The position numbers and the translations under genes were made by a program. The notes below the pieces were generated by a model. That model worked only from the letters and a program-made list of their open reading frames with translations, searched no databases and had not been told where the DNA came from. 50,159 nt of DNA from Kofleriaceae bacterium (GTDB taxonomy: Bacteria > Myxococcota_A > Polyangia > Haliangiales > Haliangiaceae): NCBI GenBank assembly GCA_018058095.1, contig JAGPCO010000015.1, forward strand, positions 1-50,159, in the 5' to 3' direction. Each line of letters starts with the position of its first letter. Within the stretch, counting starts at the first letter, position 1. This document shows, piece by piece, positions 42,023 through 50,111 of this stretch.

Positions 42023-44227
42023 ATGGTCCGCCTTGGCCACCTCGGGTGGATGCTCGCGCTGGCGGCGTGCGGGCAGATCGGCTTTGACGGTGCCGGTGCC
42101 GGCGGCGATGCCGACCCAGGCGCCGACGGCGCCACCCCGGCCAGCGGTCGGCGCTACTTCATCGGCAAGGAGAACGTGTGCCGCCTCGACGCGGCGGGCG
42201 GCCTCGAGTGCGCCGGCCACGCCGACCAGTTTCAGCTCGGGCTGGCGCCGCAGCGGCTCGACTCGGCCACCTTCGTGCCCCACCGCAGCGCGCCGGCGCT
42301 GCAGACGGTGAGCGCCGGTGACCACTTCCTGTGCGGGATCGATCTCGCCGGCGCCGCCCGCTGCTGGGGTGACAACTCCGGTGGTCGGCTCGGCACGTTG
42401 TCCGATGGCAGCACCCCGCTGCCGGTCGATGAGGTCGCGGCGGCGGAGGCGATCGCCACCGGCAACTCCCACAGCTGCGTGGTGACGGGTGGGCAGGTGT
42501 TGTGCTGGGGCTTCGAGGAGGCGGGCGAGCTCGGCTTCGGCCTTCGCCCGCTCGCGCCCGAGGGGCACCCGGCCAGCCCGGTGCCGGGCCTGCCGGCGAT
42601 GGCGCCGGCCATCGACAGCGAGGCCCAGCACACGTGCGCGCTCGATCAGGCCGGCGGGGTGTGGTGCTGGGGCCGCAACGACGCCGGCCAGTGCGGCACC
42701 GGCGCCGTGACGACCGTCGCGGCGCCGACGCGGGTCGGCCCCGACGTGATCCCGGCCGCGACCGCCATCTCGGTCGGGGCGACCCATACCTGCGCGCTCG
42801 ACGGGGCCGGGCAGATCTGGTGCTGGGGCGACAACTCGTCGGAGCAGCTCGGCCCAGGCCCCGGGCCTGGGCCGGCCGCGGCGCCGGTCCAGGTCGCCGT
42901 CCCGTTCGCCGCGACCGCGGTCGCGGCTGGCTACGGCGCGACCTGCGCGATCAGCCCTGGCGGGGGCGTCTGGTGCTGGGGCTACAACGAGGATGGCCAG
43001 CTCGGTCTCGAACCGCCGCAGTACGCGGCCCTGCCGGCGCAGGTGCCGGGGCTGTCCGGGATCACCCGGTTGGCCTCCAGCCACGGCGCGATCTGCGCTG
43101 GCGACGCCGCCGGGCAGGGCTGGTGCTGGGGCCACAACTACTACGGGCAGCTCGGCCTCGGCGACGGCAGGCTGCGCCACCTCGCCGCGCAGACCGTCCG
43201 ATCCGACGTGGTCGAGCTCGCCGCCGGGCAGGACCACGCGTGTGCGGTCGGCGCCGGCGGCGAGCTGGCGTGCTGGGGGGCCAACTGGGACGGTCAGCTC
43301 GGCGATGGCACCGAGGCGCGGCGCCGGGCACCCGTGGTGATCGGCACCGGCTACGCGGGCCCGACGATGGGCGCGTACCACACGTGTGCGCGCACCGGCG
43401 CCGGCTTGGTCGCGTGCTGGGGCGACGGTGGACGGGGCCAGCTGGCCGGGCCAACCGGCGCGTCGACGCCGACGCTCGTGTCCGGCCTGTCGATCAGCGC
43501 GACCGCGGTCCGCGCCGGCCTGCTCCACACCTGCGCGCTCGGCGGTGGCGCGGTGTGGTGCTGGGGCGACAACAGCGCGCTCCAGCTCGGCAACGGCACC
43601 GCGGCGATGCGGGCGACGCCGGAGCCGGTCGTCGGCCTGACCGCGGCCAGCGCGCTCGCGGTCGGGAGTCTGCATGGGTGTGCCCTCACCGGTGCGGGAG
43701 CGGTCGCGTGCTGGGGCCACGGCGAAGCTGGCCAGCTCGGCGACGGCACCTCGGGCAACCGGGCCATGGCGGCGCCGGTGCTCGGCCTGTCCGGCATGGT
43801 CGGGGTGACCGCCGGCGCCAACCACACGTGCGCCTGGACCGGCGGCGGCGAGGCGTGGTGCTGGGGCCACAACGGCAGCGGGCAGCTCGGCGATGGCAGC
43901 GGCATGACGCGCACGACCCCGGTCCGGGTCGCGACCGGCGTGGCCCAGGTCGTCGCCGGCGGCGACACCACCTGCGTGGTGAACACCGACGGCTCGACCG
44001 CCTGCGCCGGGGCGGGCGCCGACGGCGAGCTGGGCGACCTCGCGCAGCAGGACCAGGTCGGCTTCGTCCCGGTCCGCGCCGTCACCGCCGTGTCGGCCCT
44101 GGCCCTCACGTACCGTCGCTCCTTCGCGCTGGCCGGGAACACGCTGTTCGGATGGGGCTTCGACTACGCCGGCGAGCTGGGCACCGGCGGCAGCGGGGTC
44201 GAGGTCGCGCCGGCGCCGGTGCCATGA
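42023..44227 (+). CDS. RCC1-repeat beta-propeller lipoprotein 1
   Basis: The 734-residue protein starts MVRLGHLGWMLALAACGQIGF (lipobox LAAC) with an Asp/Ala-rich tether. About twelve blades follow, each with HxCA(L/V)...G.(V/I)WCWG.N..GQLG (for example GVWCWGRNDAGQCG, QIWCWGDNSSEQLG, GVWCWGYNEDGQLG, EAWCWGHNGSGQLG); one or two near the ends are degenerate. That is enough for nearly two seven-bladed propellers. Every blade has a Cys pair (H-T-C and W-C-W), suggesting periplasmic disulfides. RCC1 propellers bind proteins in eukaryotes; the bacterial lipoprotein versions have no assigned role. It is paired with a paralogue at 45766-46947. Confidence 0.87.
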   Translation: MVRLGHLGWMLALAACGQIGFDGAGAGGDADPGADGATPASGRRYFIGKENVCRLDAAGGLECAGHADQFQLGLAPQRLDSATFVPHRSAPALQTVSAGDHFLCGIDLAGAARCWGDNSGGRLGTLSDGSTPLPVDEVAAAEAIATGNSHSCVVTGGQVLCWGFEEAGELGFGLRPLAPEGHPASPVPGLPAMAPAIDSEAQHTCALDQAGGVWCWGRNDAGQCGTGAVTTVAAPTRVGPDVIPAATAISVGATHTCALDGAGQIWCWGDNSSEQLGPGPGPGPAAAPVQVAVPFAATAVAAGYGATCAISPGGGVWCWGYNEDGQLGLEPPQYAALPAQVPGLSGITRLASSHGAICAGDAAGQGWCWGHNYYGQLGLGDGRLRHLAAQTVRSDVVELAAGQDHACAVGAGGELACWGANWDGQLGDGTEARRRAPVVIGTGYAGPTMGAYHTCARTGAGLVACWGDGGRGQLAGPTGASTPTLVSGLSISATAVRAGLLHTCALGGGAVWCWGDNSALQLGNGTAAMRATPEPVVGLTAASALAVGSLHGCALTGAGAVACWGHGEAGQLGDGTSGNRAMAAPVLGLSGMVGVTAGANHTCAWTGGGEAWCWGHNGSGQLGDGSGMTRTTPVRVATGVAQVVAGGDTTCVVNTDGSTACAGAGADGELGDLAQQDQVGFVPVRAVTAVSALALTYRRSFALAGNTLFGWGFDYAGELGTGGSGVEVAPAPVP

Positions 44228-44270
44228 ACTGCCGGTCCATCACCACCGGCGCCGTGGCATCCTCGCGGCC

Positions 44271-45764
44271 ATGACGATGCCGTACCGGTCCGGCCTGACC
44301 TCGCTCCGGCGCGCAGGCGCCGCCACCTCGACGCTGCTGGTGATGGCCTGCGCCGTTGCGTGTGGCGACGACGCTGGCGCCACCGCCGACGCCGCGCCCG
44401 CCGGCGCGATCGACGCCGCCGTGGCACCGGCCGACGCCGACACCCGGGACGTGCTCGACCGCCTGGCCGACCTGCCCGGCGTCAGCGTGGTCGAAGAGGA
44501 GTCGCGCTACGACCCGACGCTGCGCTACTTCGTGCTGACGGTCACCCAGCCGGTCGACCACACCCAGCCGGCCGGCCCGACCTTCGGCCAGAACGTGACC
44601 GTGCTGGTGCGTGATGTGGCGGCACCGACGGTGGTCGGCACCACCGGGTACTGGAACTACTACCTCGACTACCCGACCGAGCTGACCCAGCTCCTCGGCG
44701 GCAACCAGGTGTTCTTCGAGCACCGCTTCTTCGCGCAGTCGCGACCGGAGCCGGCCGACTGGAGCCACCTCACCATCCGCCAGGCCGCGGACGACCAGCA
44801 CCGCATCATCACGCTGCTCCGCCCCATCCTGGGCGGGCCGTGGCTGTCGACCGGCGCGTCCAAGGGCGGCATGACCGCGACCTACCACCGGCGGTTCTAT
44901 CCCGACGACGTGGTCGCCTCGGTGCCGTACGTCGCGCCGCTGTCGCGGGCCGCGCCGGACCTGCGCTACGCGCCGTTTCTCGATGGCCTCGGCACGCCCG
45001 GCTGCGGCGACGCGGTGCGCGCCCTGCAGGTGGCGATGCTCGGCCCGCGCTGGGCGGCGCTGCTGAGCCGGGCCCAGGCCCAGGCCAGCAGCGAGGGCCT
45101 GGTCTACCAGCGTGTCGCCGTCGGCCCGGCGCTGGAGAGCTCGATCACCGGCCTCGACTGGGCGTTCTGGCAGTACCAGGGCGAGGCCTGGTGCAGCGCG
45201 GTGCCCGGGCCGGGTGCCAGCGACGACGCGGTGTGGACCTTCCTCGACGTGGTCAACCCGGTCAGCGGCTCGACCGACGACAACCTGGCCGCGTTCGAGG
45301 CGTACTACTTCCAGGCCGCGTACGAGCTGGGGTACCCCGGTGGCACGGGCACGCACCTGGCCGGGTTGACCCGGTTCGGCGACGTCGACTACGCCGGCGC
45401 CTGGCCGGTCGGGGTCACCCTGCCGCCCTACCGGGCCGAGGTGATGGTCGACATCGAGAGCTGGGTCGACGACGCGGGCACCCGCCTGCTGTTCGTGTAC
45501 GGCGAGTTCGATCCGTGGACGGCGGGCCGGTACCCGCTCGGTGCGGCCACCGACGCCAGCAGCCTGACCGTGGCGGCCGGCACCCACGGCGCCGGCCTGG
45601 TCGACCTCGCCGCCGCCGACAAGGCCATCGCCTACGAGCAGCTCGGGCGGTGGACCGGGGTCACGCCCGACGAGGGACGGCTGCTGCAGTTCGTGCGGCG
45701 CGCGCCGCCGCGGCTGCCTCGTCTGCCGCCTCCGCTGCTCCGGCGCCCGCTGACGCCGCGGTGA
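44271..45764 (+). CDS. Peptidase S37 (PS-10-type tripeptidyl aminopeptidase) lipoprotein
   Basis: The 497-residue protein has a lipobox (LLVMACAVACGDD) and Asp/Ala tether. The catalytic alpha/beta-hydrolase part shows the S37 features: FVLTVTQPVDHTQPAGPTFGQ, VVGTTGYWNYY, NQVFFEHRFFAQSRPEPADWSHLTIRQAADDQHRII, the nucleophile elbow STGASKGGMTATYHRRFYPDDV (Ser197), VYGEFDPW (Asp) and THGAGL (His). Family members release tripeptides from secreted protein N-termini in Streptomyces. The C-terminus (PPRLPRLPPPLLRRPLTPR) is Pro-rich. It follows RCC1 gene 1 by 43 nt, same strand, and ends 1 nt before the stop of convergent RCC1 gene 2. An alternative ATG at 44277 exists. Confidence 0.87.
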   Translation: MTMPYRSGLTSLRRAGAATSTLLVMACAVACGDDAGATADAAPAGAIDAAVAPADADTRDVLDRLADLPGVSVVEEESRYDPTLRYFVLTVTQPVDHTQPAGPTFGQNVTVLVRDVAAPTVVGTTGYWNYYLDYPTELTQLLGGNQVFFEHRFFAQSRPEPADWSHLTIRQAADDQHRIITLLRPILGGPWLSTGASKGGMTATYHRRFYPDDVVASVPYVAPLSRAAPDLRYAPFLDGLGTPGCGDAVRALQVAMLGPRWAALLSRAQAQASSEGLVYQRVAVGPALESSITGLDWAFWQYQGEAWCSAVPGPGASDDAVWTFLDVVNPVSGSTDDNLAAFEAYYFQAAYELGYPGGTGTHLAGLTRFGDVDYAGAWPVGVTLPPYRAEVMVDIESWVDDAGTRLLFVYGEFDPWTAGRYPLGAATDASSLTVAAGTHGAGLVDLAAADKAIAYEQLGRWTGVTPDEGRLLQFVRRAPPRLPRLPPPLLRRPLTPR

Positions 45765-45765
45765 G

Positions 45766-46947
45766 TCACGGCGGCAGGTTGATGAGCACCGGGACGGGCG
45801 AATCGACCATGGAGGGGTCGAGGGCCAGGGCGCCGCTGTTGTTGCTGCCCCAGCACCAGCGCTGCCCCGCGCCGTCGAGGGCACACACCAGCAGGCCGGC
45901 CCGGCCCGACAGGCTCACCAGATCGGTCAGCCCGGGCACCGGCGCCGGCGCGCTGCGGCCGGCGTGGGTCCCGTCGCCGAGCTCCCCGTAGGTGTTGCTG
46001 CCCCAGCACGAGGCGGTGCCGTCCTGGTGCAGCACGCAGGTCGAGCCGGCGTTGGCCACCACCATCACCACGGTCGCCACGCCAGGGACCCGGAGCGGCG
46101 CGCTGGAGCTGGCCGGGGCCGCCACGCCGAGCTGTCCGCTCGAGTTGCTGCCCCAGCAGGCCACCGTGCCGTCGCGCAGCCGCCCGCACGCGTGGGTATC
46201 ACCCACGGCGACGTGATCGAACGGCCCCGGCGCCGACGCGACCACGACCGGGACGTCCGACTGCGGGAGGTCCGGCACGCCGAGCTGTCCCGCGCCGTTG
46301 TCGCCCCAGCACACGGCGGTGCCGTCGGCCCGCACCGCGCACGAGTGGGTGTCGCCCGACTCCAGCGTGATCGCGTCGGCCAGCCCGACCACCTCGACCG
46401 GGACCAGCGACGAGCTCGACCCGCCGTTGCCGAGCTTTCCGGCGCTTCCATCGCCCCAGCACGCCACCGTGCCGGCCGCCCGCAGCGCGCACCCGAAGGC
46501 ATACCCGGAGGAGGCGGCGCGGACCGGACCGCCGAGGTCGAGCCGGCGCGGCACCAGGCCAGGGCTGGTGGTGCCGTCGCCGAGCTGCCCGGTCGTGTTG
46601 CCGCCCCACACCCACAGCCCGCCGGTCTCGTCCACCACGTAACGGGCGCCGTGCAGGTCGGCCCGGCGCAGCGGCGGCAGGCCGGGCACCGGCGACGGGA
46701 CGGCGTGGGTGCCATCGGCCTGGCCATCGCCCGGTGGCTCGTTGCCCCAGCAGTACAGCGTGCCGTCGGTGGTGGTGGCACAGGCCGAGATGCCCCCGGC
46801 GGCGATCCACGGCCCGACCGGGTCGGCGGCGTCGACGCTGTGGGTGTCGGCGTCGGTCGTGGCGGCATCGCCGCCGGCCGGCGCGAAGTCGATGTGCCCG
46901 CAGCCCATCCACAGGAGACCGGCGACGAGGCGAGCCGAGGTGGACAA
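45766..46947 (-). CDS. RCC1-repeat beta-propeller lipoprotein 2
   Basis: The 393-residue protein starts at a TTG (SARLVAGLLWMGCGHIDF, lipobox WMGC) and an Asp/Ala/Thr tether. Seven blades with TCV/HAC.. and (W/L/A)CWG.N signatures (YCWGNEP, WVWGGNTTGQLGDG, ACWGDGSAGKLGNG, VCWGDNGAGQLG, ACWGSNSSGQLG, SCWGSNTYGELGDG, WCWGSNNSGAL) would make one complete RCC1 propeller. The CGHIDF start after the lipid Cys matches CGQIGF in paralogue 1. A TAGGCT box lies 8 nt before the TTG, and there is no ATG that would give a signal peptide. It is convergent with the S37 gene. Confidence 0.83.
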   Translation of the reverse strand: MSTSARLVAGLLWMGCGHIDFAPAGGDAATTDADTHSVDAADPVGPWIAAGGISACATTTDGTLYCWGNEPPGDGQADGTHAVPSPVPGLPPLRRADLHGARYVVDETGGLWVWGGNTTGQLGDGTTSPGLVPRRLDLGGPVRAASSGYAFGCALRAAGTVACWGDGSAGKLGNGGSSSSLVPVEVVGLADAITLESGDTHSCAVRADGTAVCWGDNGAGQLGVPDLPQSDVPVVVASAPGPFDHVAVGDTHACGRLRDGTVACWGSNSSGQLGVAAPASSSAPLRVPGVATVVMVVANAGSTCVLHQDGTASCWGSNTYGELGDGTHAGRSAPAPVPGLTDLVSLSGRAGLLVCALDGAGQRWCWGSNNSGALALDPSMVDSPVPVLINLPP

Positions 46948-47039: not shown

Positions 47040-48551
47040 GTGTTGCTCGGCGAGATCCTCGTCGCGGATGGGCTGGTGCTGGCCGGCCACCTCGAGCGCG
47101 CGCTGACGGCGCAGCGCCGGAGCGGGCAGCGGCTGGGCTCCATCCTGGTCGCGGCCGGGATGGTCACCGCCGACGGGCTGGCGCGGGCCCTGGCCCGACA
47201 ACACGGCGTCCCGGCCGCGCTCGAGAAGCACCTGGCGGCCCGCGACGTGCGGCTGACCGGGCGGCTGCCGGCCGAGCTGGCGCGTCGGTGGCTGGCGCTG
47301 CCGGTCGCGCGTGGCCGGGACGGCACCATCGTGGTGTGCCTGCGCGACCCGAGCCCAGCCGCGTTGTCGGCGCTGGCGACCGCCCTCGGCGCCCCGGTCA
47401 CGCCGGCGGTGGCGTGTGAGCTGGTGCTGCGCCGGCACGTCGAGCAGGCCTACCCGGCGCGGGCCGCTGGCGAGGCCGGCGACGAGTTCGAGGTCGACCT
47501 CGAGTCGGGCGTACACGTGCAGTTCGACCTCGACGACGCGGCCGAGGAGCTGCTGGCGGAGATCCACGCCCCCGCGCTCGCGGTCGGCGCCGGCGCGGAG
47601 GCCGACGACGATGGCCTGGCCGACGGCGTCGCGGTGCTGGCGTCGGGGCAGTTCGAGCTGGTCAGCCTCGACCACGCCCAGGTCGCGCGGCGCGACGTCC
47701 AGGCCGAGCCGACCGGGTTGACGCACGACCGGGCCCGGGTCAGCACCGACGGCCGCGCCGCGGTGCGCCCGCCGAGGGTCGATCCCCACGCGGCGACCGC
47801 GCTGGCCGGCGCGGCCGCGCTGGCCGAAACCGCCCTGGTCGCGGCCGCCGCGCCGACCGCCCCGGCGGCGGCGGCCGTGGCCACTCCGGCCCGGTCGACC
47901 CCCGCCGCGTCGATCGACGCCCTCGACGAGGCCTGGACCCTGCCCGAGGAGGCGGCCGGGTCGAGCGGCCCGGCGATCCGCACCAGCACGCGCCGGCCTC
48001 CGGATACGCTCGAGCTCGAGGCCATGGCCGGCGCCGATCCGACCCCGGCCTCGGTGCCGGCGACCATCGCCGGGCTCGGCCTGGCCCGGGCCCGCGACGA
48101 GGTGGCCGACCTCCTGCTGGCCGCGGCGTTTGGCCGGTTCGCCGCGGTGATCGTCCTGCTCGTCCGCGACGGCCTGGCGCTGGGCCACCGCGGCGCCGGC
48201 CCGGGCATCACGCCGACCACGGTCGACGCGCTGTCGGTGCCGCTGTCGACGCCGTCGCTGCTCAAGACGGTGATCGACAACCGCCAGCCGTACCTCGGCC
48301 GCATCCCGGCGGGCGGCAGCACCATCCAGGACCGGTTCTTCCGCCTGCTGCCGACGACACCCGCCGTGCTCCTGCATCCGATCGCGCTCGGCAACCGGGT
48401 GGTGGCCCTGGTCGTGGCCGGGGCGCGCGACGTCGAGACGGCCCGGCGCGAGGCGACCGCGCTGGCGCCGGTGCTGGCGGCGTGCGCCGAGGCCTACACC
48501 CGCCTCATCCGCGCCAGCAAGCAGTCCAGCCAGCGGCCGGTGCGGCCATGA
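47040..48551 (+). CDS. MshEN-domain protein with C-terminal GAF-like domain, predicted c-di-GMP receptor
   Basis: This 503-residue protein starts with a near-ideal MshEN (GspE/PilB N-terminal) segment at 1-60: LLGEILVADGLVLAGHLERALTAQRRSGQRLGSILVAAGMVTADGLARALARQHGVP, with two LG..L....G......L..AL..Q repeats, the signature of c-di-GMP-binding MshEN domains; the first repeat lacks the preceding Arg. A second T2SS-type N-domain part continues to ~145. A low-complexity, Ala-rich linker (~150-330) follows, then a GAF-like domain (~345-490, LLLAAAFGRFAAVIVLLVRDGLALGHRGAG ... LLHPIALGNRVVALVVAG). No ATPase domain follows, so this is not a pilus motor. GTG 47040 is the start. The ATGA overlap couples it to the next gene. 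Confidence 0.83.
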   Translation: MLLGEILVADGLVLAGHLERALTAQRRSGQRLGSILVAAGMVTADGLARALARQHGVPAALEKHLAARDVRLTGRLPAELARRWLALPVARGRDGTIVVCLRDPSPAALSALATALGAPVTPAVACELVLRRHVEQAYPARAAGEAGDEFEVDLESGVHVQFDLDDAAEELLAEIHAPALAVGAGAEADDDGLADGVAVLASGQFELVSLDHAQVARRDVQAEPTGLTHDRARVSTDGRAAVRPPRVDPHAATALAGAAALAETALVAAAAPTAPAAAAVATPARSTPAASIDALDEAWTLPEEAAGSSGPAIRTSTRRPPDTLELEAMAGADPTPASVPATIAGLGLARARDEVADLLLAAAFGRFAAVIVLLVRDGLALGHRGAGPGITPTTVDALSVPLSTPSLLKTVIDNRQPYLGRIPAGGSTIQDRFFRLLPTTPAVLLHPIALGNRVVALVVAGARDVETARREATALAPVLAACAEAYTRLIRASKQSSQRPVRP

Positions 48552-49501
48552 GCGCGGTCGCGGCGTCGATCCTGGTGGTCCACCGCGATCGCAAGACCCA
48601 GCGCGTGGTGCAGCGCATCCTCGGCGCGACCGGCCTGCGCCTCGACGTCACCGACGACCACGAGCAGGCCATGCGCCTGGTCGCGCAGACCACGCCACGC
48701 TTGCTGGTCCTCGACGGCGCCGATCTGCTCCAGCCGCACGGTCGGGCGCTGGTGGCCGCGGCCGAGCTGCGCGGCGCCACCTCCTGCCTGACCCTGATGG
48801 CGGCCGACGCCAACGCCGAGGTGCCGCGCCTGCTGGCGACCGGGGCGGTGTCGAACCTGCTGGTGCACGCCATGCCGGTGCTGGCCGAGGAGTTGATCGT
48901 CACCGCCCACAAGCTGCTGCGATCCGACATCTTCGGCCTCGAGAAGTACCTGCTGTGGGGCAGCGAGGTGGTGGCGCGCCGCCTGACCCGCTCGCAGGCG
49001 CGCTCGGCGTTGGTGCACGAGCTGTCGGATCACCTCCACGCCGCCGGCCAGAGCGCGCGGGTCGCGTCGATGGCCATGCTGGTCGCCGACGAGCTGCTGT
49101 CCAACGCCGTGCACAACGCCCCGGTCGACGCCGCCGGCGTCGCCTACCGGCGCGACACCCCGCGCGACCAGGACTTCGCCCTGACCGAGCGCGAGGCGGT
49201 CGCCCTGCGCTGGGGCTGCGACGCGCGCTACGTGGCGATCGAGGTGCGCGATCGGTTTGGCAGCCTGCGGCGCGACACCGTCCTGGCCGCGCTGGCCCAC
49301 GTCCGCATCCGCGAGACCGGGGAGGGCGCCGGCATGGGCCTGGCGCTGGCGTACCGGTCGTGTGATCATCTCGTCTTCGACCTCGCTCCCGGGGTGGCCA
49401 CCGAGTGCATCGCCTTGATCGACGTGCGCGCCCTCCCCAACCAGCGGCCGTCCGCCTCGTCCTACAACGTGTTCGAGGCGACCACGGGGCCGCATGAGTG
49501 A
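48548..49501 (+). CDS. Receiver-like domain fused to RsbW-type ATPase (anti-sigma kinase-like)
   Basis: The 317-residue protein has a receiver-like half (~7-125: SILVVHRDRKTQRVVQRILG ... LLVLDGADLLQPHG with Asp56 at the phosphoacceptor place) and a GHKL-type ATPase half (~150-295): N box DELLSNAVHNAP at 181-192, G1 IEVRDRFGSL at 231-240 and G2 GEGAGMGLAL at 258-267. The receiver lacks the usual conserved Lys and Thr, so may be degenerate. There is no HisKA dimerisation helix; the ATPase resembles serine kinases of anti-sigma partner-switching proteins (RsbW/SpoIIAB). It overlaps the upstream gene (ATGA) and the downstream STAS gene by 8 nt. Confidence 0.85.
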   Translation: MSAVAASILVVHRDRKTQRVVQRILGATGLRLDVTDDHEQAMRLVAQTTPRLLVLDGADLLQPHGRALVAAAELRGATSCLTLMAADANAEVPRLLATGAVSNLLVHAMPVLAEELIVTAHKLLRSDIFGLEKYLLWGSEVVARRLTRSQARSALVHELSDHLHAAGQSARVASMAMLVADELLSNAVHNAPVDAAGVAYRRDTPRDQDFALTEREAVALRWGCDARYVAIEVRDRFGSLRRDTVLAALAHVRIRETGEGAGMGLALAYRSCDHLVFDLAPGVATECIALIDVRALPNQRPSASSYNVFEATTGPHE

Positions 49502-50018
49502 TCGCCGGCGCACCCCGGACGGGATGGTCGGCACGGCCGCGCCGCCGGGCACCCACCGCCTGAGCGTGCAGCGGTCCGACGCCGACTTCCTCACGCTCGC
49601 CGGCGTGATCGACGAGACCTCACGCCTGACCGACCTGGTGCTGACCGCGACCGGGCGGCTGCGGGTCGACCTCGGCGGCGTCACCTTCATCAACTCGCTC
49701 GGGGTGCGGGCCTGGATCCAGTTCGTGGCCGAGGCGGCCCGGGCCGGCGTGCGCCTCGAGCTGTACCGGGTCAGCGAGGTCATGATCCAGCAGCTCAACA
49801 TGATCGTCGCGGCGCGCGGCCGGGCCGAGGTGCACTCGCTCCTCGCCCCCTACGTGTGCGACCGGTGCGGGCGCGAGGAGTCCATGTTGATCGACGTCGG
49901 GCGCGACCGGCACCAGCTGGTCGCGGGCCAGGCGCCGGCGATGACCTGCCCGGAGTGCGGCGCGGCGATGGTGTTCAACGACTTCCCGCAGCGCTACTTC
50001 CTGTTCCTGTCGGAGTAG
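49494..50018 (+). CDS. STAS-domain protein with C-terminal zinc ribbon
   Basis: The 174-residue protein has a STAS domain at ~20-118 (LTLAGVIDETSRL ... LRVDLGGVTFINSLGVRAWIQFV ... VRLELYRVSEVMIQQLNMI), the anti-sigma-antagonist fold, and then a zinc ribbon with CDRC (122-125) and CPEC (152-155). The phosphorylation loop reads INSLG (66-70) in place of DSSG: the usual phosphorylated Ser position is Leu. Either it is not phosphorylated or another residue is used. The operon puts it directly after a RsbW-like ATPase, so it is probably its partner. The start overlaps the previous gene. The zinc ribbon suggests protein or nucleic acid binding. Confidence 0.87.
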   Translation: MSDRRRTPDGMVGTAAPPGTHRLSVQRSDADFLTLAGVIDETSRLTDLVLTATGRLRVDLGGVTFINSLGVRAWIQFVAEAARAGVRLELYRVSEVMIQQLNMIVAARGRAEVHSLLAPYVCDRCGREESMLIDVGRDRHQLVAGQAPAMTCPECGAAMVFNDFPQRYFLFLSE

Positions 50019-50040: not shown

Positions 50041-50111
50041 AGCAGGCTGCTGAAAAACCCGTGCCGGCGGCATTTGCCGACGGGACGGGCTCCGTGTTTT
50101 CAGCAGCCTGC
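50041..50111. repeat. Element C1: long palindromic hairpin
   Basis: A perfect 15-bp stem (50042-50056, GCAGGCTGCTGAAAA, with 50097-50111) encloses 40 nt that can fold further. Its ends resemble those of element B (AGCAGGCTGCTG). It lies 23 nt after the STAS gene stop and may serve as a terminator. Confidence 0.75.

Follow-up and report, generated by a model that had tools for sequence, protein, structure and literature searches.

A probable partner-switching operon in a Kofleriaceae bacterium with an MshEN–GAF-like protein as its possible input

The stretch of Kofleriaceae DNA analyzed here (50,159 nt, hereafter the window; positions 1–50159 of an 82-kb contig in a 7.57-Mb genome) carries a three-gene unit that we interpret as a stand-alone partner-switching operon, in which the first protein would serve as the input to a kinase–antagonist pair. 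We assign this explanation as a whole a probability of roughly 0.5. The protein 1 gene (47040–48551; 503 aa, GTG start) encodes an MshEN domain, a disordered linker, and a GAF-like domain, the protein 2 gene (48548–49501; 317 aa) a probable pseudo-receiver followed by a SpoIIAB/RsbW-type (GHKL) kinase domain, and the protein 3 gene (49494–50018; 174 aa) a STAS domain and a zinc ribbon. All three lie on the plus strand and overlap as originally described, by 4 nt (ATGA) between genes 1 and 2 and by 8 nt between genes 2 and 3. Each of the proteins gave full-length alignments with dozens of relatives, far beyond chance. The interpretation draws on computed domain assignments, catalytic-residue conservation, gene linkage within the genus, and SpoIIE linkage elsewhere.

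Since the unit is flanked 5′ by a divergent RCC1-repeat gene and 3′ by a convergent gene that reads like polyphosphate kinase 2, the three genes stand alone. An inverted repeat read from the sequence 3′ of the operon (GCAGGCTGCTGAAAA / TTTTCAGCAGCCTGC; 50042–50111) is a probable terminator region between the convergent genes, and a terminator scan returned one terminator-like stem at the same position, on the minus strand. A consensus scan upstream of protein 1 found no sigma-70 promoter; the leaderless-type promoter that had been proposed for the unit was not confirmed, its sole support being a hexamer resembling TATGCT some 7 nt 5′ of the GTG codon. Further upstream (42502–46947), a peptidase-like gene is located between two lipoprotein-type genes with RCC1-like repeats (GxLGxG...WCWG).

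The assignment of a receiver-like domain and an RsbW-type ATPase to protein 2 proved sound. The corresponding Pfam matches were weak (0.0097 and 0.0054, both below cut-off), and firm identification came from a profile match for the receiver (E 1e-7) and from the fold of the AlphaFold2 model (pLDDT 87), whose C-terminal half aligned with SpoIIAB (1th8) over 131 residues with a Z score of 13.7 and an rmsd of 2.2 and with RsbW (6m37) with a Z score of 12.3. In the HATPase/anti-sigma-type kinase domain (residues 138–294; 48959–49429, plus strand), the N-box Glu and Asn and the G1/G2 glycines of the Bergerat fold are present, and E182, N186, D235, G238, G262, and G264 were invariant among 23 sequences. 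The receiver-like domain (residues 4–126; 48557–48925, plus strand) retains Asp-56, and the acid pair is replaced by His-Pro/Arg and the conserved Lys by His, Asn, or Ala. Because these response-regulator residues are lost, the domain is probably a pseudo-receiver. Kinases resembling protein 2 were also seen fused to long C-terminal PEGA-like repeats in two genomes (G000:C18, L028:4392-6482; G020, L154:9937-12096), and in both cases an FHA–sigma54-regulator-like gene adjoins the fusion.

Protein 3 matched the Pfam STAS family just above the cut-off (23.9 versus 22.6 bits), and its profile matched the TM1442 and RsbV structures. Its N67-S68-x-G70 motif was invariant among 21 sequences, providing the STAS fold with a phosphorylatable Ser; Ser-68 (codon 49695–49697, plus strand) corresponds to the residue phosphorylated in RsbV and SpoIIAA. 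The residue before this Ser is Asn, where classic antagonists have Asp, a point against the favored reading. The zinc ribbon (49857–49958, plus strand) consists of two CxxC pairs (C122-x2-C125 and C152-x2-C155) whose four Cys residues were all invariant in 21 relatives, and the combined STAS–zinc-ribbon architecture put forward in the original prediction thus stands. Eight protein 3–like domains were found in the window's genome, and across the class such domains occurred in 56 of 192 genomes, reaching 18 copies per genome. Some are fused to other domains, namely FIST, a Ser/Thr kinase (both C190), and REC-PilZ (C207). Literature searches of partial coverage (STAS and zinc ribbon, partner switching and c-di-GMP, Myxococcus switches) returned no description of the function of this family.

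Proteins 2 and 3 are conserved as a pair across Myxococcota and beyond. Of 63 loci, 11 had a SpoIIE phosphatase gene close to that for protein 2, among them those of two MAGs, one of Candidatus Omnitrophota (L204) and one an unclassified bacterium (L203), with the order SpoIIE-2-3 on one strand. No SpoIIE/RsbU phosphatase gene is present in the window locus, and five strong SpoIIE domains are encoded elsewhere in the same genome. One region of that genome (C190; L031:765-11086, minus strand) carries, on one strand, genes for SpoIIE, a FIST-STAS-zinc protein, a Ser/Thr kinase–STAS-zinc protein, and a protein 2–like kinase, and constitutes a second, sensor-rich partner-switch locus. This gene run and the SpoIIE linkage support a phosphatase–kinase–antagonist logic. 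Since proteins 2 and 3 are conserved together and often lie near SpoIIE, partner switching is their most likely role; the kinase fold, the invariant ATP-site residues, and the N-S-x-G motif bear out the original assignment of the pair.

We also weighed an alternative in which protein 2 is, in the manner of Leptospira LvrC, a classical anti-sigma factor whose target sigma factor is encoded outside this locus. The receiver–Bergerat architecture is indeed that of LvrC (Foldseek E 2e-9), but the canonical receiver active site, preserved in LvrC, is missing from protein 2. No member of the SigB/F/G family scored above cut-off in the window's genome, no such match was found on the contig of the window, and no sigma factor was recognized among the gene products up to contig position 60000. 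The observation that no sigma factor is in view was therefore correct, and the anti-sigma type of output that had been suggested finds no cognate SigB/F/G-type sigma in either the locus or the genome. In one relative, G020, the gene immediately 5′ of the protein 1 homologue encodes a FliA-like sigma factor (L154 1654-2388), an arrangement not seen in other genomes and one that speaks for the anti-sigma alternative; however, elsewhere the FliA-like genes are on contigs without any of these loci. We thus regard this alternative as unlikely. Two sigma candidates were rejected: a sigma gene as a conserved neighbor, as the FliA-like gene is adjacent in a single genome and a family-wide search placed the rest on other contigs, and cl11, which precedes the protein 1 gene in genera g3 and g6 and is not a sigma factor.

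Protein 1 contains a complete MshEN domain (residues 1–142) that scored over the cut-offs of both the NCBIfam c-di-GMP_motif NF053729 (E 2e-15; 56.3 bits, cut-off 38) and Pfam MshEN PF05157 (E 2e-9), and its family profile matched MshE bound to c-di-GMP (5htl) and PilB/PilF domains. MshEN_N, with c-di-GMP motifs I and II, covers residues 1–54 (47040–47201), and the MshEN_C subdomain (PF05157) covers residues 67–142 (47238–47465), both on the plus strand. In the AlphaFold2 model, the MshEN domain (pLDDT ~96) is followed by a disordered linker (~146–327) and a second domain at residues 339–497 (48054–48530, plus strand; pLDDT mostly >90). For these residues Foldseek returned several GAF crystal structures as the best matches (E 3e-5 to 4e-4), and Pfam gave no GAF match in protein 1. 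Thus, the MshEN half of the predicted MshEN–GAF-like architecture was confirmed by family profiles, and the GAF-like half was recovered by predicted fold and not by Pfam. The statement that MshEN is known mainly from pilus ATPases does not hold: its occurrence outside these enzymes is already known, Wang et al. (2016, PMC5013675) having counted 22 MshEN genes in Myxococcus xanthus and listed MshEN fusions to REC, HD-GYP, CheA, CheX, and cyclase domains and to Ser/Thr kinases. The window's own genome yielded about 10 MshEN-like matches, at least three of them with an MshEN–linker–C-terminal architecture.

Using the 14 key MshEN residues from the structure paper (PMC5013675), we found that window protein 1 keeps 13, the exception being Arg-9 (MshE numbering), which is Leu; both motifs (RLGxx...LxxxLxxQ, twice, with a 5-residue spacer) are present. 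The predicted c-di-GMP motif is therefore near-intact in the window. Among the other genus orthologues, in contrast, Gly-40 of motif II is replaced by Cys, Val, or Leu in all 11 that were readable. In MshE, changing Gly-40 to Ile abolished ligand-induced stabilization, and XpsE, a non-binder, has Leu at this position (PMC5013675). More widely, position 40 of the protein 1 homologues is Cys in g7 and Gly (once Ala) in g3, g4, and g6, and the substitution maps to a single change on the MshEN tree. The protein 1 of G001 is frame-broken, and MshEN_N was not recognizable in it. Since Gly-40 is substituted across the genus orthologues, c-di-GMP, judged from these residues, is not a conserved input of the locus. 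The original prediction had named, among the grounds for its rejection, loss of the MshEN residues in homologues together with a failure of protein 1 to bind c-di-GMP, and the Gly-40 substitutions go part of the way toward this.

These substitutions bear on a second alternative, in which protein 1 acts through its GAF-like domain or MshEN_C and not through c-di-GMP, and the intact motif of the window is an ancestral remnant. A genome-wide loss of c-di-GMP signaling was rejected as the cause of the MshEN decay: genus genomes with the substituted site still encode 9–24 GGDEF proteins each, and another MshEN paralogue keeps Gly-40 in nearly all the same genomes (in this control, the G004 and G007 sequences are a different, also substituted, paralogue). 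The motif II change is therefore specific to this locus, which, along with the missing lead Arg in window protein 1, favors the alternative. On the other hand, window protein 1 retains 13 of 14 residues, mutation of Arg-9 in MshE shifted affinity by at most fivefold (PMC5013675), and one Cys-40 orthologue still scored narrowly over the NCBIfam cut-off (40.1 versus 38 bits). A mode of action independent of c-di-GMP is accordingly a possibility that we take seriously while leaning against it. For the window locus itself, a c-di-GMP input is plausible, and the c-di-GMP site of its protein 1 is probably functional, though altered in the closest kin.

Protein 1 lies upstream of genes 2 and 3, on the same strand and within ~2.5 kb, in 12 of 12 genus genomes with the region assembled. 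In two more, protein 1 and an MFS gene are near one contig end and the pair, starting with an MFS gene, is at the end of another contig, which fits a joining at the MFS gene, as expected. An MFS gene separates genes 1 and 2 in all genus genomes except that of the window and G001; in the latter (L168:4700-6000), protein 1 directly abuts protein 2. The intervening transporters are of two types that come and go, and they are codirectional with genes 1 and 2 in most genomes and antiparallel in two genus members, so the genes do not form one operon there. Outside the genus, protein 1 homologues adjoin an MFS gene, the 2/3 pair is located elsewhere, and no linkage of protein 1 to the pair was found among the loci examined. 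The association of the three proteins thus holds in the 12 observable genus members and was not found beyond them.

It might be argued from this distribution that protein 1 is a neighbor by history only: the pair, still a partner switch, would have been placed beside an MshEN–GAF gene in the genus ancestor, the ancestral neighbors of protein 1 would have been an MFS transporter and a DedA gene, and the overlapping operon would have arisen after MFS loss. Consistent with this, in other genera the protein 1 homologues are convergent with the MFS gene, with no 2/3 pair beside them, the pair occurs without protein 1 in other genera examined, and protein 1 diverges faster (~30–45% identity) than protein 2 or 3 (~60%). 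However, order and linkage were kept in every one of the 12 observable genus genomes despite upstream flanks that vary among them, and the 4-nt overlap in the window implies translational coupling. We therefore consider a purely historical association rather improbable.

A different protein also connects c-di-GMP with the protein 3 family. A REC-PilZ-STAS-zinc-ribbon protein (G000:C207:40330-41451; L033:5331-6455) has a PilZ domain (E 7e-13), retains the NxSxxG motif intact, and is kept full-length in most Kofleriaceae genomes with ~56–67% identity. By its predicted domains, it joins a c-di-GMP receptor domain to a protein 3–type output domain and is independent support for the link. The PilZ RxxxR motif is intact in the 9 genomes with Gly-40 or Ala-40 in protein 1 and altered in the 10 without, in agreement for 19 of 19 scorable genomes. 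Significance for this correlation was rejected because only 1–2 independent changes are present on the tree, and the agreement between the two motifs is suggestive only. A broader proposal is that c-di-GMP directly sets a partner switch with a STAS–zinc-ribbon effector, not a sigma factor, through both the MshEN–GAF protein of this operon and a fused PilZ receptor elsewhere in the genome, and that the genus re-tuned or abandoned both sites together in most members; we hold this to be doubtful.

In the favored reading, that of a stand-alone operon with protein 1 as input, the MshEN domain would probably bind c-di-GMP in this genome and the GAF-like domain would receive a second signal. Protein 1 would then act on protein 2 by protein contact, possibly via the pseudo-receiver, and so would substitute for the SpoIIE phosphatase that some other loci encode next to the pair. 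Protein 2 is predicted to phosphorylate Ser-68 of protein 3, whose phosphorylation state may decide which partner is held by protein 2 or by the zinc ribbon. STAS–zinc-ribbon proteins and their receiver–kinase partners form a large signaling family. Were protein 1 to control the switch, c-di-GMP would be linked to partner switching directly by a receptor, and the natural Gly-40 variants offer a ready-made test of the importance of the ligand.

The locus combines known domains in an arrangement for which we found no description, and the 2/3 pair is an expanded, undescribed variant of a known bacterial switch. It resembles RsbU-RsbV-RsbW and SpoIIE-SpoIIAA-SpoIIAB in the kinase fold, the ATP-site residues, a STAS substrate bearing Ser at the site of phosphorylation, and the SpoIIE phosphatase near other copies. 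It differs from them in the pseudo-receiver on the kinase, the zinc ribbon on the antagonist, the Asn before Ser, and, in the window locus, an MshEN–GAF protein instead of a phosphatase or sigma gene. LvrC (PDB 9qih; PMC13269768) shares with protein 2, over the full length, a receiver and a Bergerat anti-sigma-type domain, but its receiver is canonical and phosphorylated (PMC13269768), whereas in that of protein 2 neither the acid pair nor the conserved Lys remains. The HsbR-HsbA-HsbD system of Pseudomonas aeruginosa (PMC5085249, PMC6482189) likewise ties a partner switch to c-di-GMP synthesis, and SypE-SypA of Vibrio fischeri (PMC8256260) is a partner switch with a non-sigma output; in these systems the link is a diguanylate cyclase or an unknown target, whereas the present operon pairs the switch genes with that of a putative c-di-GMP receptor. 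Finally, protein 1 shares both 24-residue motifs and the MshEN_C subdomain with MshE, PilB, and NfrB (PMC5013675), but in place of an ATPase or glycosyltransferase it carries a linker to a GAF-like domain.
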